IMG/VR virus record: IMGVR_UViG_3300046327_000125 | Location: 1-41,008 of that record | Reading direction: 5' to 3' (one strand) | DNA: 41,008 nucleotides | Source of the DNA: a virus | In this document: positions 7,611 through 37,546 of the stretch, in pieces | Layout of the letters: the number at the start of each line of letters is the position of its first letter | Position numbering within the stretch: the first letter of the stretch is position 1 | Program-made: the position numbers and the translations under genes | Notes under the pieces: model-generated | The model's database searches: none | What the model was told of the DNA's origin: nothing | Seen by the model: only the letters and a program-made list of their open reading frames with translations

Positions 7611-7860
7611 AATCCGCCTACTCGCTTCTGAACTCCACGAGTTCAAAAAGACGTTCCTTTACAAACACTTTAAAGGTTCGCAAAAACTACTCTTTGATGA
7701 AACGGTTCTTCAAGTCATTGATGAACCTATTAAAGGCCCCGAGACACTCTACATTCGCGAAGGGTGGATCGGGGAAGCTCGCGCAACGAGGGAACTATAT
7801 AAATGGTTCGACAACCTCGGAGACGTGCTTGAAAAAGAAATCCGCGAACTAGAACAATAA
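7555..7860 (+). CDS. Small virion-region protein, 101 aa, unknown
   Basis: ATG 7555 lies inside the 3' end of the portal gene, so the two frames overlap by 56 bases. The product begins Asn/Pro-rich, is strongly charged, and has a helical middle (ELHEFKKTFLYKHF). Its place between portal and scaffold is where podoviruses often encode a small head-assembly factor. No family recognised. The unusually long start overlap could be real or the true start could be later, but no in-frame Met follows within the portal-free part, which favours the overlap. Confidence 0.65.
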   Translation: MPNNNNQPSPEEDNLTPSEIRLLASELHEFKKTFLYKHFKGSQKLLFDETVLQVIDEPIKGPETLYIREGWIGEARATRELYKWFDNLGDVLEKEIRELEQ

Positions 7861-7873
7861 GCCAAACAACACT

Positions 7874-8662
7874 ATGCCATATCCATTCGACAACGAAGAC
7901 GACGACGATCAAATCATTGAAGACGGCCAACAAACCGATATCATTGATGACGATCAACAACAGCAACAGGACGACGTCACGCAACAGCAACAGCAGGCCA
8001 TACCGCAGTCCTTCAATCCAGCCGACATTGCGCAAATCGTCGCAGCTACAATGCAAGCTCACCGTGAGCCCGCCGCTCCACGACAAATGTCCGCCGAAGA
8101 AGCGGCGCAGCACTTCCAGGTTTTCAACCCTGACGAGAGTTTCGTTAATGGCCTAAACGCGTTGGCTGATCCCGATGCCACACCGGCTGATCGCCGCAAA
8201 ATCATTGATACGCTGCGGGATGGACTTGTCAATCAATCTTTCCGTGCGGCGGAATTGCTTATGGAACAGAAGATGGCCGAACTCGATCAACGATATGCGC
8301 CTGCATTGCAGATTGCGCAACGTGAGGAAGCAAAGCAACTTCAAAACGCTTTCGTGAAGAAGTATCCAGCATTGAAAGGACAAGATCAACTTGTCAATTC
8401 GATTACTGCGGGACTCGCACAACAAGGTTTCAGGCCAAAGTCAGCAGACGAGGCTTTTGATAAAGTGGCACAGTTTGCCGAACAGATCTTGCAAAAGGTC
8501 AATCCGGAATTCAAACTGGGGACACAAAAAAGCGGGGGTGGCGGTCGCTCACCTTCGATGGCTGGAACGAACATGGGTGGACATAGCGGTGGATTCCAAA
8601 CGGTCCGCGGGGATAATACTCCGCAGAAGCGTGGTGGACTTGCCTCATTCTACAAAAAGTAA
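7874..8662 (+). CDS. Putative capsid scaffolding protein, 262 aa
   Basis: The N-terminus is very acidic (DNEDDDDQIIEDG), followed by Gln tracts (QQQQQDDVTQQQQQ), a long charged helical middle, and a Gly-rich, basic C-terminus ending KKRGG-like and YKK. Acidic, helical proteins with a basic tail immediately before the major capsid gene are characteristic of phage scaffolding proteins, whose basic end binds the coat protein during procapsid assembly. Sequence identity to a known scaffold is not claimed; the call comes from composition, length and position. Confidence 0.75.
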   Translation: MPYPFDNEDDDDQIIEDGQQTDIIDDDQQQQQDDVTQQQQQAIPQSFNPADIAQIVAATMQAHREPAAPRQMSAEEAAQHFQVFNPDESFVNGLNALADPDATPADRRKIIDTLRDGLVNQSFRAAELLMEQKMAELDQRYAPALQIAQREEAKQLQNAFVKKYPALKGQDQLVNSITAGLAQQGFRPKSADEAFDKVAQFAEQILQKVNPEFKLGTQKSGGGGRSPSMAGTNMGGHSGGFQTVRGDNTPQKRGGLASFYKK

Positions 8663-24178: not shown

Positions 24179-25360
24179 TGCTGGTTTCAGTGTATAACAT
24201 GGGAAGTTATTTATTGTGCCCTGGGTTATTTGGTCAGTTTTGATCAAATAGTCCAGGGCTTTATCTTGTTGATCTACGTCGCCATCTTCGAACAGGACCG
24301 CAAGCAATTGTTTTTTCATTAGGCGCTTGTCTGGCGCTTCCTCTAGTCGCGAAATAACCTTAAACGCCAACTCGGCCAGTGGGTTCTTACCTGCGCCAGC
24401 GAAGACTTTACCGAGATCTTTTTCGGTAGCGTTAAGCATTTCCACACCACGACGAAGTAGATCCGCGTCGAGCTTCATGGTCATGTTCTCAGAGCAGTCA
24501 AGCAACATCGCGAGCTTGATAAGCATCGTGTCTTTGGAACGTAACCAGTTCTTGAACGCCGCTGGATGAGGCATGGCAAGTTGTCGGTGCTTCATGTTAT
24601 ACCACGGGACGAAGAAGTCTTTACCATCTTGCGTCATTTCATACTGACCTTTGACTTTTAGGACTTTCTCGAGGTGCTGCATGCAGAATTCCTTAGCGTC
24701 CATTTGCTCGGGCAAGAGTTCAGGAAGCGCTATCGGGTCGGCTTTGGATCGACCGTAGACGAAAACGCATCGACGAGAAAAACCACCCGTGATAAGGCGG
24801 TCTTTCATGAGAGAGTTCGTCTGCTCCGGCGTCATGCACGCCAGGATGGTAATGTAAGGTGCGTCGATAATATCATTACCTTTATTTTTGGTGAGGACTT
24901 CAAAGGCCTCTCGATCGTAGATATCCGTAAAGAACTCAATAAGACCCTGTGGGTTACCACCTGCCGAGAGCATCGTGACAATCTCAGATGCGAAGAAGGA
25001 AAGATGGGTGATGTGCTTAGGTATATTGTTCGTATCAACATAATTCATGTGGCATGGGGACTTGTCGTTTTCGGCTGACATTAACACCGTGATTGCCTCT
25101 TTAGTCGCAGAGGGCGGGGCAATTGGGCGTTTGACTTTTTGAACCATCGATCTTGCTAATGACAGGGCGGTGGTCTTCTTATCACCGGGCTCTCCTACAA
25201 GAACAACATACATGTTCGCATAAATCTTAAAGTAGTTTTGGTCGAAAAAGATACGTCTCGACACAGCAGAAGACAGGACGTTAACCCCAGCCCACGTGTG
25301 GAAGAGCGGCGACGCTTCATTTCCTTGCGCAAATATTTTGTAAGCCTCGAGAAAATTCAT
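24158..25360 (-). CDS. DUF3987-type ATPase, replicative helicase/primase-helicase-like, 400 aa
   Basis: The pattern SPLFHTWAGVNVLSSAVSRR, then KIYANMYVVLVGEPGDKKTT, matches the DUF3987 family, P-loop proteins related to replicative helicases and found in phage and mobile-element replication modules. Walker A is GEPGDKKTT (residues 56-64), with Lys in the usual Gly position before the catalytic Lys. A later acidic segment includes ITILACMTPEQTNS, a sensor-like strand. No primase domain is present, unlike T7 gp4. ATG 25360 is preferred over 25366 because it overlaps the ligase stop as ATGA. It is the last gene of the leftward unit and overlaps the giant gene tail to tail. Confidence 0.7.
   Translation of the reverse strand: MNFLEAYKIFAQGNEASPLFHTWAGVNVLSSAVSRRIFFDQNYFKIYANMYVVLVGEPGDKKTTALSLARSMVQKVKRPIAPPSATKEAITVLMSAENDKSPCHMNYVDTNNIPKHITHLSFFASEIVTMLSAGGNPQGLIEFFTDIYDREAFEVLTKNKGNDIIDAPYITILACMTPEQTNSLMKDRLITGGFSRRCVFVYGRSKADPIALPELLPEQMDAKEFCMQHLEKVLKVKGQYEMTQDGKDFFVPWYNMKHRQLAMPHPAAFKNWLRSKDTMLIKLAMLLDCSENMTMKLDADLLRRGVEMLNATEKDLGKVFAGAGKNPLAELAFKVISRLEEAPDKRLMKKQLLAVLFEDGDVDQQDKALDYLIKTDQITQGTINNFPCYTLKPASLLAEQ
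24218..24263 (+). terminator. Strong rho-independent-type terminator of the late operon
   Basis: Bases 24218-24236 pair with 24241-24259 to give 19 continuous pairs (16 Watson-Crick, three G-U) around a GTTT loop, followed by TTTAT. The base is GCCCTGG/CCAGGGC. The wobble pairs become C-A mismatches on the other strand, so the hairpin is optimised for rightward RNA. It lies 40 bp past the giant gene's stop, inside the coding part of the leftward gene. Confidence 0.8.
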
Positions 25361-26220
25361 ACCCAATGGACAAGTTCGATGATTGGTTTAAGTGGGACTT
25401 TAGAATCTGAAAGCATCTCGTATCGGTAGTGGACTTGTGTCCCCTTCATACGTTCCTCCCCGAGCTTCCAATACTCTTCACGCTGCGAATGCGTAAGCCC
25501 AGAGCCTGCGGAGAACTTCGTTCCCCAACGCGACATGAGATTGAACGAACCCAACATGTCTTTAGGCTTACCTGTCGTGCCGCAAATCATCTCGTTAAAG
25601 CCGGTGATATACGCGTCGTCATCAAGCATTTCCTTACGTTTAAGCAGACAATTCCAACGGTTATCTTTATTTCCACAACGATGGGAGAAGCCATATGTTG
25701 CGTTAGCATCACGATACATCATGCCCTCGTAACCGTCAAGGTTTTTCCATTGGTTGTAGAGGTAATCCGCTTCCGACTCTGACGTCACTTCGCACGTCTT
25801 GACAACTTGCACGCCCGCGACATCACGTAACATCTCAGCGAGACGGTTCAACATGAGAGCGCGCTTCCAGAACGGAGAGTCGATCATGACGTCGAATATG
25901 TTAAAGTCAACCAACGTGCTTTCGGCGTGAGGCTGGTTACGGACGACTCCGATTCTTGAGTTGATATTCTGCAACGACATACCATGCCGATAGAACTCAC
26001 CGTCAAGATGAAAGCGCTGTGCGGTTAATGCCCTAAACGCGTGGGCGACGACCGCATGGTTCCACACTTCGCCGTAGCGTGATTGGAAGATTGCGCCGCG
26101 ATCTCCAGCTTTGCTACGTGGAATGTAAAGACCACGAACTCCGTTGAGCTTTGGTTGAACGAAGCAGGGGAAAGTGATTTTGGACGGCACGTATTTGTGC
26201 GCAAGCATGGGCTTCACCAC
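25357..26220 (-). CDS. ATP-dependent DNA ligase, 287 aa
   Basis: Seals nicks during replication or repair using ATP via a covalent lysyl-AMP. All nucleotidyltransferase motifs can be followed: motif I QPKLNGVRG with Lys24 as the adenylated residue, motif III LDGEFYRHG, motif IIIa FNIFDVM, motif IV YEGMMYRD and motif V LLKRKEML. The C-terminus would be a small OB-type domain, so this is a minimal phage ligase. The start is GTG 26220 (or the adjacent GTG 26217), preceded by AAAGGAGGTG, the clearest Shine-Dalgarno sequence in the window. That sequence lies inside the end of the preceding 32-codon ORF. Confidence 0.9.
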   Translation of the reverse strand: MVKPMLAHKYVPSKITFPCFVQPKLNGVRGLYIPRSKAGDRGAIFQSRYGEVWNHAVVAHAFRALTAQRFHLDGEFYRHGMSLQNINSRIGVVRNQPHAESTLVDFNIFDVMIDSPFWKRALMLNRLAEMLRDVAGVQVVKTCEVTSESEADYLYNQWKNLDGYEGMMYRDANATYGFSHRCGNKDNRWNCLLKRKEMLDDDAYITGFNEMICGTTGKPKDMLGSFNLMSRWGTKFSAGSGLTHSQREEYWKLGEERMKGTQVHYRYEMLSDSKVPLKPIIELVHWV

Positions 26221-26990: not shown

Positions 26991-27178
26991 GAGTATTTGA
27001 AAGTTCTTATACAAACATTACGTAAGACTTCTTGGCAATTAAAACATTTTGCCCGTGGGTCATCAATTAAAATGTGTTTAAATTGATTTAGGTTATAATA
27101 AGCTTTACATTTACAAACATAAACTATTTTATATTTTTCAAGTAAAATAATGTTTCCGTGATTAGTGCGTGTGTTCAT
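26987..27178 (-). CDS. Small Cys-rich, possibly zinc-binding protein, 63 aa
   Basis: Contains YVCKCKAYY and RAKCFNCQEVL, i.e. two C-x-C/C-x-x-C pairs about 22 residues apart plus a further Cys, a zinc-ribbon-like arrangement. ATG 27178 overlaps the polymerase stop (ATGA). The coding sequence is distinctly A/T-rich compared with neighbours. A small nucleic-acid-binding or regulatory role would fit the replication operon; not proven. Confidence 0.5.
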   Translation of the reverse strand: MNTRTNHGNIILLEKYKIVYVCKCKAYYNLNQFKHILIDDPRAKCFNCQEVLRNVCIRTFKYS

Positions 27179-29655
27179 ATCCTAAATTCTGTTGTTAATT
27201 CTTCCCAAGATTTACCGTAAGCTCCTTCCGCCGGGATGTGGATGAGACGTCGTGCGATGGTGACGGGTTCAGAGAAGTAGTGTTTGAGACGGGCGATTGC
27301 GAAGTCACGGTCGGCGATATGCCACTGGCCGCATAGGGCGTCATGGACTTGGTGGAGAGGTTCGACGATGAGTGTGCCGTCAGATCGACGGTTGAGTGGA
27401 TCCTCCCAGAGTTTGAGTAAGGCCATATTCGTGACGTAGGTAGTATTCGCTTGCGGTTCGTGAGCTGTAGCGGAACGTAATGTTTCGTGCGCGGTCCTTC
27501 GGCCAAAGAAAGTACGGATATGCCCTGAAGCACAGCCCAGCTTCCCCTTGGTTTTCAGTTCTTGTTCCACCCACGTCTGCCAGGCTTTCACACCCTTGTA
27601 ACGTAAATTGTAAAGTCGTTGAAGCTCTTCGCATAATTTTGGTTCTACGTATAACGGCGTTCCGGTCATTTTGAACGAGTCCTTGAGGATCTGGTTCGCC
27701 ATTGTTTTGGTTCCGAGGAGATAATTAGTTCCGTGTTGGACACGTTTACAGGTGAAATAGAGATACTCAGTTTCATCGGTATTGCCGATATACTTACATG
27801 CTTGATGAAGTTGTGCACGATCCATCTTAGATGACTCTGCGCCGTGAAGATACATGTAGGCGATGACGCGTGCAGGCTTGATACCGAACAGGTAGTCGTC
27901 GAGCATGGTCGAATCGCCAAAACCTGCACTGTGGGCAGCAACTGTCCAACCGTCAGCACCGGCAAGGTCAAGCTGAAAGAACTCACAGCCTTCGTCGGCC
28001 CGAAACAATCGACGAAGTTTTTTCGTGACAGTTGTAAGGTTCGCACCAACGTTTTTAAGTTTACCTTTGGGATCGAGAACGGCGGAAGGCTCGGATGACG
28101 AATAACAATTAAGTCGTCCAGTCTCAGTTCCGACCAGATTGTAAGAGCAGCGCATTCTTCCGTCAATAGGAGATACGGGAATAGCGCAAGTCTGTTGAAG
28201 CTTTTCGCATTTTCGCCACGCGATGAGATCGCGGAGGACGGGGTCGTCAAAGAGTCTGTTGAGCTCAAGAAGTGCGTCAACGTTGGAGGTAACTTTAGTT
28301 TTGTCGACACGTCCTGCTTTAGTTGGATGTTGTTTAGGGAAGCCTTTGGTTTTGTAGAGGTAGTCACAGACTTGTTTTGGGGAGTTGACGTTGATTGCGC
28401 GTCCCGCAGCGATGTTGATGCGGAGTTGGATCTCTTGCTGCTTGGCGTGAGTTTTGTCGTAAATGTCCTTCGCCGTCTCGCTATCGAACTTCATGCCGCG
28501 GAGTTGCATGTAGTTGATCGCGGGTAAGAGTCTCATGTTGAAGTCAAAATGTGCCGCAGCCGATTTTGTAAAAGCCTTTTCGTGTTTCTCGGCAATTTCA
28601 AACGTAACGCAAGAATCTGTGCAACAGTACTTCCAGTGAGTAACCGTGTGGTCGATCTTCCTTTGGAATTTGTAGTATGGTTCGCGAGTCCATATTGCCG
28701 TCTGTGTCCCCAGCCCTTTAGGCAATTCGGGGTAAAGCTCCCAACCCGATAACATCGTGTCGAAGGCGATGTTCGCGAGGTGGATTTGATACTTCCACGC
28801 GAGACAGAAGTAGTCGTAGATACAGTTTTGTAGAATCTTAGGAATGTCGGTTCGGGCCATTGTGATCCGTAACTGCGCAATGATTCTAGCGTCATCTTCG
28901 ACGGAGAAAACACCAAACGGAATGATGAAAGCGTCATGCGCTGAGGTGGCAATGGAGAGACATGAAATCCATGTGACATAACCTTCGATATCCAGTGCGA
29001 TCGGCCGACGTGGCGGTAACGAGCGAAGTCGCTCGATAATTTCAAAGGCGGAAAGGTTAAGATCGTAATGTCGAACCGGGAGGGAGAGTTCTTTTGTGAG
29101 CCCTTCTTCCCGCGCACGGACGAGATCAAGACGTAGTAGAGGCATCCAGTCGTAGTTTCTAAATACATCACTCGGGTCATACGAGGGCATACATTTATAT
29201 CCTTCGCAAGGTGAGCCAATAGCTGTGCACTCGTATAGTGACCCGTGCCAGTTGGTAAAACTCTCACCGGGTTTGCCTGCCACATGCAGTGGGACATTTC
29301 CCAACGGGACAATGAGGTTAGGTTGGAACGCACGAATGTCGACGCGAAGCTGCTCGAGGTCTTCTTGAACCGTGTGAGAGTTGAATGGGAAATCTTTGGC
29401 ATCTTTGTATTTTACTTTGTGATTTGTTACATAAGAAAACGTGCAAGCCAGAGGGCTGATGCCGACGGAGTTGAGGAGGTTTTTGAGGACTGATCCACCG
29501 GTTCCGACGAACGGTCGGGACTCTTTGAGTTCAGCATCGCCAGGGCAGTCGAGGATAAAAAGTATGCGGTAGTCAGCCGGAACTTGCGCGAACTCTGTTC
29601 GGACGTTCGATACGTTTGGTTTCGTGTTTTGGTCATTAAGGTCTAGGTTGAACAT
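27175..29655 (-). CDS. Family A DNA polymerase with N-terminal uracil-DNA-glycosylase-like domain, 826 aa
   Basis: Residues about 30-185 resemble a family 4/5 UDG: LDCPGDAELKESRPFVGTGG, then IVPLGNVPLHV and MPSYDPSDVF where YHPS is usual. Residues about 215-360 form a 3'-5' exonuclease with Asp222/Glu224, Asn277/Asp281 and Tyr343-x3-Asp347. The polymerase part has the GR motif (TETGRLNCYSS), motif A around Asp563 (QLDLAGADGW), motif B KRVQHGTNYLLG (637-648) and motif C QVHDALCGQ (His771-Asp772). Several normally fixed residues differ: motif A Glu is Asp568, the O-helix Lys is His641, and motif C reads HDA not HDE. UDG-polymerase fusions are known from phage SPO1. It replicates the phage genome. 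Confidence 0.85.
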   Translation of the reverse strand: MFNLDLNDQNTKPNVSNVRTEFAQVPADYRILFILDCPGDAELKESRPFVGTGGSVLKNLLNSVGISPLACTFSYVTNHKVKYKDAKDFPFNSHTVQEDLEQLRVDIRAFQPNLIVPLGNVPLHVAGKPGESFTNWHGSLYECTAIGSPCEGYKCMPSYDPSDVFRNYDWMPLLRLDLVRAREEGLTKELSLPVRHYDLNLSAFEIIERLRSLPPRRPIALDIEGYVTWISCLSIATSAHDAFIIPFGVFSVEDDARIIAQLRITMARTDIPKILQNCIYDYFCLAWKYQIHLANIAFDTMLSGWELYPELPKGLGTQTAIWTREPYYKFQRKIDHTVTHWKYCCTDSCVTFEIAEKHEKAFTKSAAAHFDFNMRLLPAINYMQLRGMKFDSETAKDIYDKTHAKQQEIQLRINIAAGRAINVNSPKQVCDYLYKTKGFPKQHPTKAGRVDKTKVTSNVDALLELNRLFDDPVLRDLIAWRKCEKLQQTCAIPVSPIDGRMRCSYNLVGTETGRLNCYSSSEPSAVLDPKGKLKNVGANLTTVTKKLRRLFRADEGCEFFQLDLAGADGWTVAAHSAGFGDSTMLDDYLFGIKPARVIAYMYLHGAESSKMDRAQLHQACKYIGNTDETEYLYFTCKRVQHGTNYLLGTKTMANQILKDSFKMTGTPLYVEPKLCEELQRLYNLRYKGVKAWQTWVEQELKTKGKLGCASGHIRTFFGRRTAHETLRSATAHEPQANTTYVTNMALLKLWEDPLNRRSDGTLIVEPLHQVHDALCGQWHIADRDFAIARLKHYFSEPVTIARRLIHIPAEGAYGKSWEELTTEFRI

Positions 29656-29838
29656 TTAAGTAGCAAGGTAGAGATTTTCGTATTGTGTAATAACTTCTTT
29701 CGGAACTTCATCCCACTCGATTGTCTGCTCCATCGTCCCCATCATAGGGTAGAAAAGAACACAGGCGACCTCGCCAGATTCATCAGTGTAGAATCTGTAG
29801 AGGTCGCCGAGATAGATGATTTTAATTTCCTTAAGCAT
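29656..29838 (-). CDS. Small protein, 60 aa, unknown
   Basis: Sits between the methyltransferase and the polymerase. Its start overlaps the upstream stop (TGATG), and its TAA directly abuts the polymerase ATG. The product is compact and acidic, beginning MLKEIKIIYLGDLYRFYTD, with alternating strands suggesting a small beta fold. No family recognised. Confidence 0.65.
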   Translation of the reverse strand: MLKEIKIIYLGDLYRFYTDESGEVACVLFYPMMGTMEQTIEWDEVPKEVITQYENLYLAT

Positions 29839-31355
29839 CAGCCGTTGATTTCTTTTATAAGTCGTCCGAGTTGAACGACACCTTTGTTGTAATGGTCGGG
29901 GTCGATCTCACATCCCATCGGGATGAGTCCCATGTTAATACACGCGCGTCCGCAAGACATCTGGCCCGCGTAGGGGTCGTAAATCGTTTGCCCAGGGTGG
30001 GATATTGCTCCAAGTATTGCTTTCCACGCTGCCAACGGTTTTGCAAACGGATTGTCGTAAAGCTTACGGTCAGCTGTGCCGTCCGCTGTAAAAATTGACG
30101 AGGTTTGAGGGTTAACGAGAGCCGCATGGGATGTCTTACGCAGCACCATGACGCACTCGAAGTTCTTTGTCCAGTTAGTCCTTGGACTGGCGTTCTTGCA
30201 TGGATGTAGTTTGTGCCAGATAAGGGGCCAACGTTGAACTTTAAATCCAATGCGCTTGGCAATGGACTGAAGCTTTTCGTGGTGGTCAAGGTCATACCAA
30301 AAACACACATATCCATTTGGCTTAACTGTTCGGAATGCCTGTGTGAGAAAGGGTTCAAACATAGAAATGTTTTGTATGACATCATGAGTATCTACGACAG
30401 TGTCGATGTTTTTAAGTTCTGCCATTTGCGTGAGGTCGATACCGTATGGTGGGTCGGTCACGATGTGGTCGACGTATTCGTCGGGAAGAGTCGGCATGAC
30501 TTCAAGGCAGTCGCCGAGAGCGAAGAGGGATGTAAGGTCGAGGTTGAGTTTACCAGCTACGTTCGGCGTAATGCCGAGGAAGTCGTCAACGTCAGCAGTT
30601 CCTCCGAAGTCGTTTTTGTTTGCTTTGTTCAAATCGCCAAACACGTCATCGACGTCGTCTTGCGTTCCACGAATACCGCCTGACGTAACCGCCATCGCGC
30701 TCGCTCGTTCGTTAAGATTGTTGACATGCAAAGCCGCAGCCTGATCCTCTTTACGCTTCAGCAACATCTCGTAAGCATAGAACATCGACGAGCAGGCTAG
30801 TATTTCTGGGTCGCCCTGTACGAGATACGGCGTCAGTAAGTTAGCGTGAGATACGTGAGCTGCGCTGACTCCCATTAGTTCGCCCGTCTCACGCATGCCC
30901 CAGGACTTTGAGTCAAGGGCGTTTGCTTTCGCTTTCGCACGATGCGTCTTGTCGATAAGTACACATTTCTCATGCCAAAGCATTCCCTTACGATGGAAAT
31001 TCTCCATTAGTTCAAGCTCGAGAATCTCATGCACTGGCATGTTGTCACGTACGTTGACAGGGAAGAGTTGAACTTCAAGCATCTTCATGGAACGCATACG
31101 TCGCTCACCTCCTACGAGAATATATGGCTTGGAATGCCCTTCAGGTGCGACAGTTACAAGCGGTGGGTGAATTAATCCGTTTTTCTTAATCGACATTGCA
31201 ATGGATTCAATGTCTCCGAAGTCCTTACGCGATCTATCGTTCATGTCGATATCGTCCCACTTCAGCATCGTGCAGCCATGTGGATAACGAAAGTCCCACT
31301 CTTGCAGGATCGCTACGTCTTCGCCTTTGTTTTCAATTATTACTGGTATTATCAC
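29838..31355 (-). CDS. ParB-like nuclease domain fused to DNA methyltransferase, about 505 aa
   Basis: Residues about 40-120 are a ParB/Srx-type domain (RSRKDFGDIESIAMSIKKNG, then YILVGGERRMRSMKML), followed by a helical KorB-like region. The C-terminal half is an amino-methyltransferase: catalytic motif IV DPPYGIDL at about residue 301, then the AdoMet-binding motif I as DPYAGQMSCG. Motif IV before I marks the beta class, which makes N6-methyladenine or N4-methylcytosine. Such fusions are known from phages and plasmids; the likely job is to modify phage DNA against host restriction or mark it. The frame is open to TTG 31415, but that lies in a hairpin; GTG 31355 after an A/C-rich leader is chosen. 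ATG 31268 is the alternative. Confidence 0.8.
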   Translation of the reverse strand: MIIPVIIENKGEDVAILQEWDFRYPHGCTMLKWDDIDMNDRSRKDFGDIESIAMSIKKNGLIHPPLVTVAPEGHSKPYILVGGERRMRSMKMLEVQLFPVNVRDNMPVHEILELELMENFHRKGMLWHEKCVLIDKTHRAKAKANALDSKSWGMRETGELMGVSAAHVSHANLLTPYLVQGDPEILACSSMFYAYEMLLKRKEDQAAALHVNNLNERASAMAVTSGGIRGTQDDVDDVFGDLNKANKNDFGGTADVDDFLGITPNVAGKLNLDLTSLFALGDCLEVMPTLPDEYVDHIVTDPPYGIDLTQMAELKNIDTVVDTHDVIQNISMFEPFLTQAFRTVKPNGYVCFWYDLDHHEKLQSIAKRIGFKVQRWPLIWHKLHPCKNASPRTNWTKNFECVMVLRKTSHAALVNPQTSSIFTADGTADRKLYDNPFAKPLAAWKAILGAISHPGQTIYDPYAGQMSCGRACINMGLIPMGCEIDPDHYNKGVVQLGRLIKEING

Positions 31356-31387
31356 GGAAAGTTGTGTTTGGTTTTGTTGTAAAGTAA

Positions 31388-31413
31388 GGCCGAGGGTGTT
31401 TCCACCCCCGACC
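31388..31413 (-). terminator. Hairpin between DUF669-like and ParB-methyltransferase genes
   Basis: On the leftward transcript a 10-bp stem (base GGTCGG, top GGGT/ACCC, two G-U pairs) closes a GGAAAC loop directly after the DUF669-like stop. The G-U pairs become A-C mismatches on the other strand, so it belongs to leftward RNA. The following run TTACTTTAC is a weak U-tract, suggesting attenuation or an mRNA-processing hairpin more than a full stop. Confidence 0.55.
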
Positions 31414-31426
31414 AATATGTTACCGA

Positions 31427-32206: not shown

Positions 32207-32358
32207 GACGTGTCGACGTTGTTGAGGTTGGGGAACATGAGTTGACGGCCTAGATTGCGTTGATGTTCGAACATGGCGAGACGACATGCGCCGGCGTCTG
32301 CGTAGATAGGCCGCGTGAATTGGTAGAGGAACATAAAGTGTTGACGGGAGATTTTCAT
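32185..32358 (-). CDS. Small protein, 57 aa, recovered between Sak4-like ATPase and 64-aa gene
   Basis: ATG 32358 overlaps the stop of the RecA-fold ATPase gene as ATGA. The frame ends at TAA 32185-32187, inside the start of the next gene. The peptide begins MKISRQHFMFLYQFTRPIYA and has several Met/Phe/Arg residues. Coupling on both sides and lack of a competing frame support it. No function can be assigned. Confidence 0.6.
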   Translation of the reverse strand: MKISRQHFMFLYQFTRPIYADAGACRLAMFEHQRNLGRQLMFPNLNNVDTSCNAPSS

Positions 32359-33170
32359 ACGGCTGGTTTGAGTTCTTTCAACACTTCGATCACTTCGTCA
32401 AACGAGTTGATGCGTTTGAGTCCGGGGAAGGATGATTTGATTCCACGATGGTCAGTGTCGGATATTGGTAGCGTGCGGACTTTGAATTCGTGCTTGACTG
32501 AATCACCCACGCCAATGACGGAAAGGAATACATGCCAACAATCTGTAAAGAGTCCAGACATAGTTGTCTTAGATTGTCCGGGGACGTTGATGAACTGTTT
32601 GAATCTGCCGTCGACTTCATCTTTTTCGTAGTTGTTGTGGGAGATTAGGACAAAGGTCTTGCCGCATGTGCGCATTGTTGAGACGAAACCTTTTAGGAGG
32701 AATAGGAACTTACCCCAGTCTTGGATGCGCATACCCTTGGCGTTGGCTATGTCCATGAGCTTGTCGGCTTTAGCGCGCACGTCGGCGTCTTTGTCGAGGT
32801 AAGTTTTGAGAGAGAATTGGCTACCGTGTTCCTGACGCATGACTTCGGACATGACAATGTCGGAAAAGGTAGTGAGGGAATCGACGATCACGGTTTCTAC
32901 CGCTTCCGAAGCCACCGCAGCGTTGAGAGAAGTAACGCAATGCTGATAGCGTAGAAGAGGATGAATCCATACCCCTGTGTCAGTTGTGGTGGCGGAGTCG
33001 TAGTTGAAGTCGCGGATCTTGGTTTGCTCGACAGGGGCGGAGAGGTTACCGTCGCAGTCGAAGAAGTATGGTTTGGGGAAGTGCAACGCCAGTGTGGTTT
33101 TACGTACGCCGGGGTCGCCGATCACTATAATTGCGCGGTCAGACCGCTTCAGATTTGTGCCGTTTTGCAT
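32355..33170 (-). CDS. RecA-fold ATPase, AAA_24/Sak4-like recombinase, 271 aa
   Basis: Walker A is IVIGDPGVRKTTLALHF (Lys24 catalytic, Arg in the usual Gly position), followed by YFFDCDGN and a Walker B-type strand ETVIVDSLTTFSD. A later FVLISHNNYEKDEVDG strand is where RecA-like proteins place a sensor. Size and pattern match the phage AAA_24 family, which includes Sak4 single-strand annealing/recombination ATPases. The nearby DUF669-like gene and Cas4/RecB-like nuclease would complete a recombination set: resect, coat, anneal. Start ATG 33170 shares its A with the previous TAA. Family membership is fairly sure; the Sak4 role is inferred. Confidence 0.75.
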   Translation of the reverse strand: MQNGTNLKRSDRAIIVIGDPGVRKTTLALHFPKPYFFDCDGNLSAPVEQTKIRDFNYDSATTTDTGVWIHPLLRYQHCVTSLNAAVASEAVETVIVDSLTTFSDIVMSEVMRQEHGSQFSLKTYLDKDADVRAKADKLMDIANAKGMRIQDWGKFLFLLKGFVSTMRTCGKTFVLISHNNYEKDEVDGRFKQFINVPGQSKTTMSGLFTDCWHVFLSVIGVGDSVKHEFKVRTLPISDTDHRGIKSSFPGLKRINSFDEVIEVLKELKPAV

Positions 33171-33718
33171 TAAAGTTTTGGTTCGATTTTGCTCCAGATG
33201 TGAGAGAAGTTAAGGTCAAGTGTATTCCAGTTGGATGGAACGCAAACGGCTTGGCCACCGGCGTCGATGAACTTGTCGACATTCTTTTGAAGATCGTCAA
33301 TAAGTAAAACGTCTGGTTTTGCCATGAGGTGTTTTGCGCTACCGAACATGCAGTCAGTCATTTTGATTCCTAACTTGGTTTTTAGCCAGCCAATCTTTTC
33401 GGGAATGCATGACGGATGATAAGAAGGAGACGAAGCGACAGTGAATGGTATGTTAAGAGAATGCAACTTGTCGATCAGCTGCAAAGCATGGTTCATGCGA
33501 GGCAAATTAGTCCAAAAGAAATTACCTTCGATTGTGTTCCAAAAAGAGGTTGCAGTAATACCAAATACTTCGGCCATGTCAAATTTACCGTGGCGTGTAA
33601 CGTAGTCAGCTGGTGTGATATGTCGTTTAGGGTGGCGTGCGTTTAATCTAACCAGAGCTGATGAAAAGAAGTCTGCAAGGACTCCATCCATGTCAAGTAA
33701 AATATGTTTGATTTGCAT
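33170..33718 (-). CDS. HAD-superfamily 5'(3')-deoxyribonucleotidase-like, 182 aa
   Basis: Motif I HILLDMDGVLADF supplies the DxD pair (Asp9, Asp11). FTVASSPS is motif II, the Lys after the WLKTKLG region is motif III, and VLLIDDLQKNVDKF is motif IV. This set and length match phage and bacterial 5'(3')-nucleotidases (NT5C-type), which remove phosphate from deoxynucleoside monophosphates and so alter nucleotide pools. A HAD phosphatase with another substrate is possible. The stop shares bases with the Sak4-like ATG, and the start lies one base after the 58-aa gene's stop. Confidence 0.85.
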   Translation of the reverse strand: MQIKHILLDMDGVLADFFSSALVRLNARHPKRHITPADYVTRHGKFDMAEVFGITATSFWNTIEGNFFWTNLPRMNHALQLIDKLHSLNIPFTVASSPSYHPSCIPEKIGWLKTKLGIKMTDCMFGSAKHLMAKPDVLLIDDLQKNVDKFIDAGGQAVCVPSNWNTLDLNFSHIWSKIEPKL

Positions 33719-33719
33719 T

Positions 33720-33896
33720 TTAGTAAAGATTGCCGTTGTATGGACGGTATGGTTGGAAGCGACGTGATTTGTGGTTGAGACGACGTTGCACGACAGCGTT
33801 TTGCTGGATGTGCATGAGTCGTTGATGTACGCGATGGCGATATGGCATCGGGAAGTCTGAGGAGTTAACGAGGTCCCACTCGATTAGTTGTGTCAT
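33720..33896 (-). CDS. Small very basic protein, 58 aa
   Basis: ATG 33896 opens a 58-codon frame ending at TAA 33720-33722, one base before the HAD start. The product is MTQLIEWDLVNSSDF followed by an Arg/His/Gln/Tyr-rich segment (VVQRRLNHKSRRFQPYRP), giving a strong positive charge that suggests nucleic-acid binding. The leader is A/C-rich (CCCAAACCAAACCAACAAC) as for other genes here. It is the first gene after the structured noncoding region. Confidence 0.6.
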   Translation of the reverse strand: MTQLIEWDLVNSSDFPMPYRHRVHQRLMHIQQNAVVQRRLNHKSRRFQPYRPYNGNLY

Positions 33897-34412
33897 GTTG
33901 TTGGTTTGGTTTGGGAGAGTGTAGCCGCTTACGGCGGCAAGTCGTCCTGATTGTCGATCTTATTTAAGTGAGCACTCACAGGATTATGTCCGACCAATCA
34001 CTATCACGTTTACATGAGTTTAACGACTTCTAAAACGGCATCGAACCTTAGGTCGTGTGGATGTTAGCGCATTACTGATACCGTTACGTATTACAACCGA
34101 GCTAACTTTTCTATAACAACACCACACTCCAACCCCGGCCAGGTCGCTCACTGACCGGATTTCTCTGTTCGGCTCCGGGTTGGCATTAGTGCCCTCACTG
34201 CGGAGGCTGGAGTGTGGTGACATACTTACGGGCATGTCAGCACGGGCATAGAATAATCCGCTATGCCGGCGGCACCATTTACATTTTTACGTGTTGAACT
34301 GTCTGGAGAACATCGTTCACGTGCATGTGGTGGGAGCGACCCACCATGACGGTTTACCGAACCGCCTGTATCTGTCATGCAATCAGTGTGGGACTCGAAC
34401 CCACAACGATGT
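33897..34412 (-). ncRNA. Hairpin-dense noncoding region, candidate structured RNA
   Basis: No convincing gene fits these 516 bases. Instead there are many inverted repeats. From high to low coordinate: 34387-34405 (6 bp), 34350-34364 (5 bp), 34328-34346 (7 bp), 34322-34327 with 34376-34381 (6 bp, enclosing the two before it), 34245-34267 (7 bp), 34218-34239 (6 bp), 34120-34131 with 34208-34219 (12 bp, enclosing smaller hairpins), 34063-34106 (6 bp) and 34024-34055. The strand is inferred from flanking leftward genes. It could be a long 5' leader, several small RNAs, or a DNA-level signal such as an origin. Confidence 0.45.
34120..34219 (-). repeat. 12-bp perfect inverted repeat enclosing nested hairpins
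   Basis: CACCACACTCCA (34120-34131) is the exact reverse complement of TGGAGTGTGGTG (34208-34219). Inside are GGTC/GACC with flanking CC/GG (34139-34158), an ACCC/GGGT stem (34132-34180) and GGCA-TTAG-TGCC (34182-34193), so the segment can fold as a branched RNA of about 100 nt. The outer stem is equally stable on both strands. Confidence 0.65.
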
Positions 34413-34421
34413 TTACCGATC
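34381..34421 (-). other. tRNA T-arm/acceptor-like element
   Basis: On the leftward strand GTGGG-TTCGAGT-CCCAC (34404-34388) is a textbook T-arm with the canonical TTCGAGT loop. The next seven bases ACTGATT (34387-34381) can pair, with two G-U pairs, with GATCGGT (34421-34415), which overlaps the stop of the preceding gene. The 10-nt linker has no room for D and anticodon arms, so it is not a functional tRNA. Confidence 0.35.
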
Positions 34422-35474
34422 CTCCAACGGACTCCATGTCACGTTTGAATACTCAGGGGAGTCGAGGATGAGATGGCGTTGATTAGGCGGGAGAGTGCAA
34501 GCGTTGTGATATTGGCATTGACCGTATTTACCAAAACATTGTTTGGTTTGCTTCGGAAAGAAACCTTCGGCGAGAGAATGTACGAAGGTAGCCACTTGAG
34601 ACAAAACATCCTGCTCCCATTCAGCCACGTGCCAGTCGGTGTGGAAATAAACCTGTCTTTCGAATTCCAACGCACGTCCCGTCTTAGTGGGTCGGCGTTG
34701 AATAATCGCATTGACAACAGTGCCGATAATCTTATGGTCTGGAAGCATACGCCGACCTGCCCAGTTGTAGCCCACCATCTGCTGTGAAAGCATGAAGTCT
34801 TTGAAGAACTGTGCGCCGCCGATGGATGAGGTTTTATGGTCAACGATGTAAACGTGCGCGTCGCCGTAATTGGCGGCGATGTCGATACGACCTGACCATA
34901 GTATTGTAAGCTTTCCGACATGTAGTTGTCCGGTTGTTTCACCTTGTTGGGTAAGTTCGTGTTCACTGTAGCCTAGCTTGTCGTTGATCTGGATCTCTCC
35001 GAGAACAATCGAGAACGCCCTTTCGATAAACTTCTTGCCGTTCACGACAATTGGTTTGCACGGATCGTTGTTGCGGTATTTCTCGACATATTTTTCAAGT
35101 GTGTCTTGCGCGATTGTAGGAGTTCTCCACTCGTCTGGATCACGGAACTTTAATTTGTCGAGATTTTCCAGACACGCTTCGATAGCGAAGGTGAGTGAGG
35201 AGAAGCCATCACGATAAAGATGTTCGAGGCCGACATGGATCGCTCCGCCGAACTGTAAAGCTGCTGTTGGTATTGCTTGACGTCTGCGTACGCAATAGTT
35301 CTCAGCTGCACGAGGACAACCTTGGAAGATTTCCAAAGTCGTGTTGTCAATGCGGAGGATAAAGTCATCGCCGTCGCCGTCGCGTTCAAGTAATGGACGC
35401 TTCGGTTCGTGAAGATGAATAATACCTGTTTGATCATTGAGGTCGAGGTCTTCATCTAAGTTAAAAAGTCCCAT
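34413..35474 (-). CDS. PD-(D/E)XK nuclease, Cas4/RecB-like exonuclease, 353 aa
   Basis: The nuclease core is visible: His80 in GGAIHVGLE, Asp198 in SGRIDIAAN, then VYIVDHKTSS with Asp212 and Lys214, and a following QQMVGYNWAG motif with the conserved Gln-Tyr pair. Cys53, Cys61 and a C-terminal cluster (KQCFGKYGQCQYHNAC) look like the Fe-S ligands of Cas4/AddB-type PDDEXK_1 enzymes. These resect DNA ends during recombination or degrade foreign DNA. With the Sak4-like ATPase it would form the phage recombination module. The start overlaps the previous gene by 14 bp. Confidence 0.85.
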   Translation of the reverse strand: MGLFNLDEDLDLNDQTGIIHLHEPKRPLLERDGDGDDFILRIDNTTLEIFQGCPRAAENYCVRRRQAIPTAALQFGGAIHVGLEHLYRDGFSSLTFAIEACLENLDKLKFRDPDEWRTPTIAQDTLEKYVEKYRNNDPCKPIVVNGKKFIERAFSIVLGEIQINDKLGYSEHELTQQGETTGQLHVGKLTILWSGRIDIAANYGDAHVYIVDHKTSSIGGAQFFKDFMLSQQMVGYNWAGRRMLPDHKIIGTVVNAIIQRRPTKTGRALEFERQVYFHTDWHVAEWEQDVLSQVATFVHSLAEGFFPKQTKQCFGKYGQCQYHNACTLPPNQRHLILDSPEYSNVTWSPLEDR

Positions 35475-37172: not shown

Positions 37173-37400
37173 TCATGGCTGGATACTGGCGTTCGGCAGA
37201 CGAATGGCTTCGGGCCAGAATTCGCCGTCGATTCCGTAGCGGCCATCATCCGACAGCACGATGTCAGATCCCGTCTGCATCACCCATTGCAGTTCCACGT
37301 TCCACTCGACGACTTCTGGCTCGTCGTCCTCGTCGCCCTCGCGATACCAGTAATATCCCGACTCTGCGGGCCGATCTTTTGTCCATTGAGGTGTTTCCAT
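37173..37400 (-). CDS. Small early-type protein, 75 aa
   Basis: Begins METPQWTKDRPAESGYYWYR and has a W-x(4-6)-P-x(2-4)-G-x-Y-W pattern, then PEVVEWNVELQWVM and EFWPEAIRLP. This is reminiscent of short phage accessory proteins (DUF551-like) that open with a Trp-x-Pro-Gly-Tyr-Trp block and end in an EF-W/P pattern. Their function is unknown. The gene lies just after the large hairpin at 37418-37480. Confidence 0.6.
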   Translation of the reverse strand: METPQWTKDRPAESGYYWYREGDEDDEPEVVEWNVELQWVMQTGSDIVLSDDGRYGIDGEFWPEAIRLPNASIQP

Positions 37401-37417
37401 AGTGGTGAGGTTCTAGT

Positions 37418-37480
37418 TGAGAGGTCGGCGACAGCAAAGCGAACGCCAAGAACGCGTGCTGTCGAAGGTCCGACCTCTCA
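37418..37480 (-). other. Large two-part stem-loop in the leader of the 75-aa gene
   Basis: TGAGAGGTCGG (37418-37428) pairs exactly with CCGACCTCTCA (37470-37480), and CGACAGC (37429-37435) with GCTGTCG (37458-37464), leaving a 5-nt bulge and a 22-nt top loop. Eighteen pairs in all. It lies between a terminator and the next ATG (37400), so it may act as a 5' leader structure, a processed small RNA, or a second terminator. Confidence 0.65.
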
Positions 37481-37484
37481 CTGG

Positions 37485-37515
37485 AAAAGCCTCACGCCAT
37501 TTCTGACGTGAGGCT
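37485..37515 (-). terminator. Rho-independent terminator after the exported protein gene
   Basis: On the leftward strand AGCCTCACG (37515-37507) pairs with CGTGAGGCT (37496-37488) across a 10-nt loop, and TTTT follows directly. Nine uninterrupted pairs plus a U-tract, 32 bases downstream of the 201-aa gene's stop: a standard intrinsic terminator. Confidence 0.75.
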
Positions 37516-37546
37516 AGACTCAAAACAATGACTGTGCGAAACGATA

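Follow-up and report, generated by a model that had tools for sequence, protein, structure and literature searches.

Comparative evidence for a structured RNA element with a conserved internal-loop core in the leftward operon of a group of PolA/Sak4 phages

Few families of structured RNAs encoded by phages are known, and the published work nearest to the locus described here concerns GOLLD, ROOL, and OLE (PMC12286853). GOLLD is a long, highly structured, phage-encoded noncoding RNA with conserved and variable parts, often found near tRNA genes, while ROOL is a large structured phage-encoded RNA often located near tRNA islands, and the function of both is still open (PMC12286853). The element reported here recalls GOLLD in that relatives of its phage have tRNA-like genes in the syntenic slot, but it was not matched by the Rfam covariance models of GOLLD or ROOL at gathering or relaxed thresholds, its conserved module spans only ~120 nt, and neither an oligomer, as in GOLLD, nor a complex pseudoknotted fold, as in ROOL, is part of the evidence. 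Another kind of phage RNA element is represented by put of phage HK022, which consists of two abutting hairpins with unpaired conserved bases in an early phage transcript and is not tied to one gene. A likeness to put may be seen in the abutting P0 and P1 stems described below, in their conserved unpaired bases, and in the lack of a single linked gene, but P1 is longer and the element lies mid-operon.

The window, that is, the whole stretch of DNA analyzed, corresponds to a virus record of IMG/VR, 41,008 bases long, with rightward genes on its left part (head-tail adaptor, major head protein, and others) and leftward genes on its right part. The leftward genes include those coding for a DNA ligase (25357–26220), a PolA-type (family A) DNA polymerase fused to a uracil-DNA-glycosylase (UDG)-like N-terminal domain (27175–29655, minus strand), a fusion of a ParB N-terminal domain with an N6/N4 DNA methyltransferase that is kept in relatives (29838–31415, minus strand), a Sak4-like protein (32355–33170), an NT5C-family phosphatase (33170–33718), a small ORF abutting the latter (33720–33896), and a PD-(D/E)XK exonuclease (34413–35474). 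Shine-Dalgarno sequences were absent at most gene starts of the window, which presented A/C-rich leaders instead, a pattern as in Bacteroidota-like hosts.

A noncoding gap of 516 bp (33897–34412, minus strand in operon sense) begins at the end of the exonuclease gene (34413) and extends to the small ORF (33896). The first-pass annotation had claimed that this region carries no credible gene and holds the inverted repeats TGCATG/CATGCA, enclosing two hairpins, and GTTAGC/GCTAAC, and both observations were confirmed. Its view of the leftward operon as otherwise gene-packed was accurate overall, except for a shorter intergenic stretch at ~37401–37546, and the exceptional hairpin density that it had reported amounted to a mild excess of inverted repeats, not clearly above chance: 5 stems of at least 6 bp against 2.4 in dinucleotide shuffles (reached by 22 of 200 shuffles), and 13 stems of at least 5 bp against 9.0 (reached by 26 of 200). 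A folding energy lower than that of shuffled sequence, another point raised for verification, was found for the gap as a whole, where it was modest (z –2.2 to –2.6 on the sense strand and –2.7 to –2.8 on the antisense strand), but was clear for only part of it. The segment at 34114–34245, which holds P0 and P1, reached z –3.6 sense and –2.6 antisense, and the 5′ domain at 34300–34413 reached –2.3 sense, while the 3′ part of the gap (33897–34115, minus strand), which holds GTTAGC/GCTAAC and ends in an A/C-rich leader, folded no better than shuffled sequence (z –0.1 sense); of 443 segments of 130 nt along the coding-sense strands, the best one in the gap ranked eighth. Folding of one sequence by itself would thus have been insufficient as proof, and hairpin density alone proved a weak guide, one small module being conserved and much of the surrounding gap not; the decisive evidence for a structured RNA is comparative.

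Relatives were reached through their exonuclease, Sak4, and polymerase genes, the polymerase identity to the window being 85% for G001/L033, 71% for G002/L039, 66% for G003, 65% for G004, and 45% for G009, and 41 and 40% for the distant phages G010 and G011, respectively. In L033 and L039, the sequence between the exonuclease and Sak4 genes contains a hairpin and, after it, a long stem that carries the window's core, and the RNAalifold consensus of these two sequences and the window revealed that all changes in the long stem preserved pairing, except for the one base missing from the window. The P0+P1 segment folded better than shuffled sequence in all three close relatives. A covariance model, R1, was built from the window, L033, and L039, and a scan with it of 524 kb from related phages picked up G011 (E 0.005) and G010 (E 0.018), two distant phages whose elements read CAAAUCAACACAUUG-CAGUGAGGGCAC ... 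GUGAGCGACCUGAC-CAGUGUGUUGAUUUG, with the core letters of the window and L039 and with stem letters largely replaced. The element was not found in G003 and G004 (both fragments) or in G009; since model R2, searched on whole records, missed the known members G010 and G011, apparently through their long inserts, its negatives carry little weight. Outside P0+P1, BLAST comparison of the window with L033 or G002 revealed no homology, and it is therefore possible that the 516 nt do not form a single RNA. The corresponding noncoding stretch is of ~295 nt in L033 and of ~840 nt in G002, the whole of the latter folding with z of about –6.3 sense.

The conserved element (34121–34218, minus strand, operon sense), supported by the covariance matches in L033, L039, G010, and G011 and by covariation, comprises the P1 stem, the core, and a variable insert, and the gap as a whole is arranged, from 5′ to 3′ on the minus strand, as a multibranch domain, P0, P1, the core, P2, the insert, and the less structured 3′ part. 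The 18-nt 5′ arm of P1 (ACCACACTCCAGCCTCCG, 34201–34218) pairs in all five members with the 3′ arm (CGGGGTTGGAGTGTGGT, 34121–34137), which is one base shorter in the window than in the other members and leaves a U bulge opposite, the window's P1 having 17 bp and one bulge where that of the other four members has 18 bp. The 5′ strand of the core (CAGTGAGGGCAC, 34189–34200) is identical in the window, L039, G010, and G011, as is the 3′ strand (GTGAGCGACCTGGC, 34138–34151) bar one G/A. Across these four members the core hardly varies, even at its unpaired bases, and presents after P1 a CA bulge, GU/RC (2 bp), G·G, AGG/CCU (3 bp), and a G opposite AGCGA, being followed by P2, composed of CAC/GUG and a fourth pair that is U-A in the window, A-U in L039 and G010, and G-C in G011. 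L033 was the odd member, in which the first 8 bases of the 5′ core strand match those of the other members and the 3′ core strand, the inner core, and P2 diverge. A kink-turn was considered by eye for the core and rejected, the internal loop being 5 × 1 and the second G·A pair absent.

The variable insert beyond the core (34152–34188, minus strand), an extension of P2, differs in length and sequence among members. The P0 hairpin (34219–34239, minus strand), directly 5′ of P1, is paired in the window, L033, and L039, with a compensated change, and in G010 and G011 unrelated hairpins of other sequence abut P1. The multibranch domain (34309–34413, minus strand, z –2.3) is specific to the window and was not seen in relatives; it is closed by a 9-bp stem (AACATCGTT/AACGATGTT), has TGCATG/CATGCA around two hairpins, and contains a T-arm-like hairpin (GUGGG-UUCGAGU-CCCAC, 34388–34404).

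MAFFT alignment of the five untrimmed elements misplaced P1 in G010 and G011, and therefore the variable inserts were trimmed before building the alignment A5, which comprises five members, 26 pairs, and 129 pair cells. In A5, 99.2% of the 129 cells were paired, and two-sided changes were found in 13 of the 26 pairs, although the cell counts overstate how many of the compensatory changes arose independently, because the five sequences come from two lineages only. In 500 shuffles, the number of paired cells, the number of two-sided changes, and the covariation score of A5 were never reached, and its value for further pair types was reached once. When the partner was slid by 1–3 columns, only 32–43% of the cells were paired, a control that only partly answers the concern that the trimming was guided by the structure and so favours it. 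In P1, 13 of the 18 positions vary among members, and pairing is kept in all cells but the window's bulge. The covariation among homologues that the first-pass annotation had named as a means of checking its proposal was thus present, and the shape of the RNA itself is under selection, a stem and an odd internal loop being kept despite changes of letters. Moreover, when read on the operon-sense strand, the per-pair table of A5 contained 14 G·U/U·G cells but not a single A·C cell; those 14 cells would be mismatches on the opposite strand, and selection is therefore on the leftward transcript, as RNA and not as a DNA cruciform.

A protein reading of the conserved segment, with the peptide MSPHSSLRSEG shared by the window and L039, was ruled out. 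The halves of the conserved core lie 53, 33, 59, 120, and 112 nt apart (modulo 3: 2, 0, 2, 0, and 1), and in G010 and G011 the reading frames through the insert are broken by stop codons; the peptide is therefore considered a by-product, because the frame varies across members and stops interrupt the insert.

Searches for described counterparts were negative within their scope. Rfam at gathering score matched no family in the window and relatives searched, apart from a tRNA in L049, and gave no credible match to the gap at relaxed thresholds, and DNA similarity searches of the gap and of the relatives' elements against INPHARED returned nothing beyond chance. The pattern GGTTGGAGTGTGGTG had no other match with a partner arm in viral contigs, none of the 85 matches of the core pattern in bacterial genome contigs had a P1-like stem, and none of the 22 sites of GTGAGCGACCTGACC in 784 genomes of two phyla had the other core half in place; the recurrent GTGAGCGACCTGACC site among these genomes reads as KVSDLTGKRRPNSIAFPRQIA, presumably a dnaA-like site. 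The titles and abstracts listed in searches of open papers held no description of this RNA, an earlier account elsewhere being possible. The assignment of the element to a previously undescribed family of structured RNA is made with middling confidence, as part of an explanation that also includes its maturation and independent action.

The gene directly after the element differs among members. The element lies downstream of the exonuclease gene in the window, L033, and L039, and ~2 kb upstream of it in G010; to judge from the coordinates, it is probably likewise upstream in G011, if that record is circularly permuted. In all members it has the operon-sense orientation. Because the neighbouring genes differ, an independent structured RNA is favoured over a leader of one gene. 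Comparison of the five sequences has shown a hairpin, P0, next to an 18-bp stem, P1, which presents an invariant asymmetric internal-loop core, and the letters of P1 tolerate any substitution that leaves its pairs intact. The explanation preferred here, for which the chances are put at about even, is that the gap is a gene for a structured noncoding RNA of an undescribed family, transcribed leftward in the early operon, that matures and acts independently as a ribonucleoprotein (RNP). The RNA would mature from the polycistronic early (replication/recombination) transcript and would act as a unit of its own and not as the leader of one particular gene; the invariant core would be a putative binding site for a phage or host protein, giving an RNP, with P1 as a handle of fixed length and with further structure added by 5′ and 3′ domains that are specific to each lineage. 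Such an RNP might, for example, act on host RNA metabolism or translation. In its boldest form, which is put forward as a speculative possibility, this explanation would make the element the first of a class of phage RNAs, an RNP acting in trans through binding of the core to a specific phage or host protein, with lineage-specific domains that bring the RNA to as much as ~840 nt, and with a mechanism not shared with known phage RNAs; its carriers would be PolA/Sak4 phages that infect uncultured bacteria. The element is compact, has a sharply defined invariant core, and belongs to the replication operon of phages whose hosts are uncultured; these properties would allow RNA pull-down to be used in the search for a partner, and a single covariance model to map the range of the element.

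The functional RNA proposed by the first-pass annotation is thus strongly supported by the covariation, the conserved unpaired core bases, and the specificity for the operon-sense strand. The chief rival explanation, tentatively granted a minor share of the probability, is that the element acts in cis within the early polycistronic mRNA: the P0/P1 module, not yet separated from that mRNA, would be bound by polymerase or a protein and would control the whole downstream block, for example through processive antitermination of the kind known from HK022 put or through an effect on transcript processing and stability. The operon-sense orientation in all members, the two abutting hairpins with conserved unpaired bases, and the absence of a tie to one downstream gene speak for it, as does the fact that no promoter or terminator of the element's own was recognized, in scans whose sigma-70 models may not fit the host; this last result also counts against the preferred explanation. 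On the other hand, the element is found mid-operon in the window and not near the operon start, and the strongly folded stretch of up to 840 nt exceeds the usual need of such elements. Terminator-like sites in the leftward operon were no more frequent than in shuffles, and antitermination gains no support because these sites occur at chance frequency.

A riboswitch-like or translational leader acting on the directly downstream gene (the small ORF, NT5C, or Sak4) is improbable. The first-pass annotation had suggested a leader for the genes downstream, and the element does precede an ORF with an A/C-rich leader directly, but this suggestion was weakened by the differences among members in the next gene and in the position relative to the exonuclease gene. 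No constant association with one downstream gene was found, and no expression platform was recognized.

Still less credit is given to the idea that a tRNA-like cargo slot has decayed here and no longer has a function. Two matches to the tRNA model, both missed by ARAGORN, were noticed in the slot between the exonuclease and Sak4 genes of two distant relatives, at L049:7796–7866 (40.1 bits) and at L054:7317–7438 (31.7 bits, 122 nt with a large insert), and the T-arm-like hairpin at 34388–34404 may belong to the history of that slot. The window, however, has no cloverleaf, ARAGORN and Rfam found no tRNA or tmRNA in it (tmRNA model 10.2 bits against a gathering score of 47), and P1 and the core are under active selection and are not tRNA; decay does not preserve an 18-bp covarying stem. 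The decayed-slot explanation is contradicted for P1 and the core and could hold for 34309–34413. An attP or tRNA-end reading of the T-arm-like hairpin was rejected, no integrase being present among the proteins scanned, a subset of those of the window, and the plasmids searched with this hairpin had no match beyond the T-arm. A DNA-level element, either a cruciform or the replication origin that had also been suggested, is very unlikely despite the hairpins lying in the early operon beside replication and recombination genes, given the confinement of G·U cells to the operon-sense strand (14 such cells, against no A·C cell), the variable insert length, and the gap having no repeat array, skew switch, or strand-symmetric palindrome.

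In addition to the element itself, other structured sites were noticed. The intergenic element at 37395–37540 (minus strand) folds more strongly than the gap (z –6.4 sense and –7.6 antisense) and contains a terminator-like hairpin (GCCTCACGTCAGAAATGGCGTGAGGCTTTT) followed by a long bulged hairpin; at the matching place in G001 (2571–2633), a terminator-like hairpin has changed letters and is still paired. In L049, a repeated 28-nt motif ending in CGTGTAAAAATTTTG (7662–7689 and 7878–7905) precedes the two hairpins that flank the tRNA match, and the gaps of the window and of L039 contain comparable CACGTAAAA strings, these repeats and strings being possibly promoters or processing sites. In L041 (570–690), the sequence after NT5C folds into a multibranch structure of four hairpins, closed by a 7-bp stem (GAGAAGG/CCUUCUC), and has a tRNA-like outline and no Rfam match. 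A recurring hairpin, GCUGRCAUACCG...GUAUGYC, with a loop of varying length, lies before different genes at L039:5036, L039:5577, L040:1546, L041:547, L050:9590, and L052:5077, and resembles P0 of the window.
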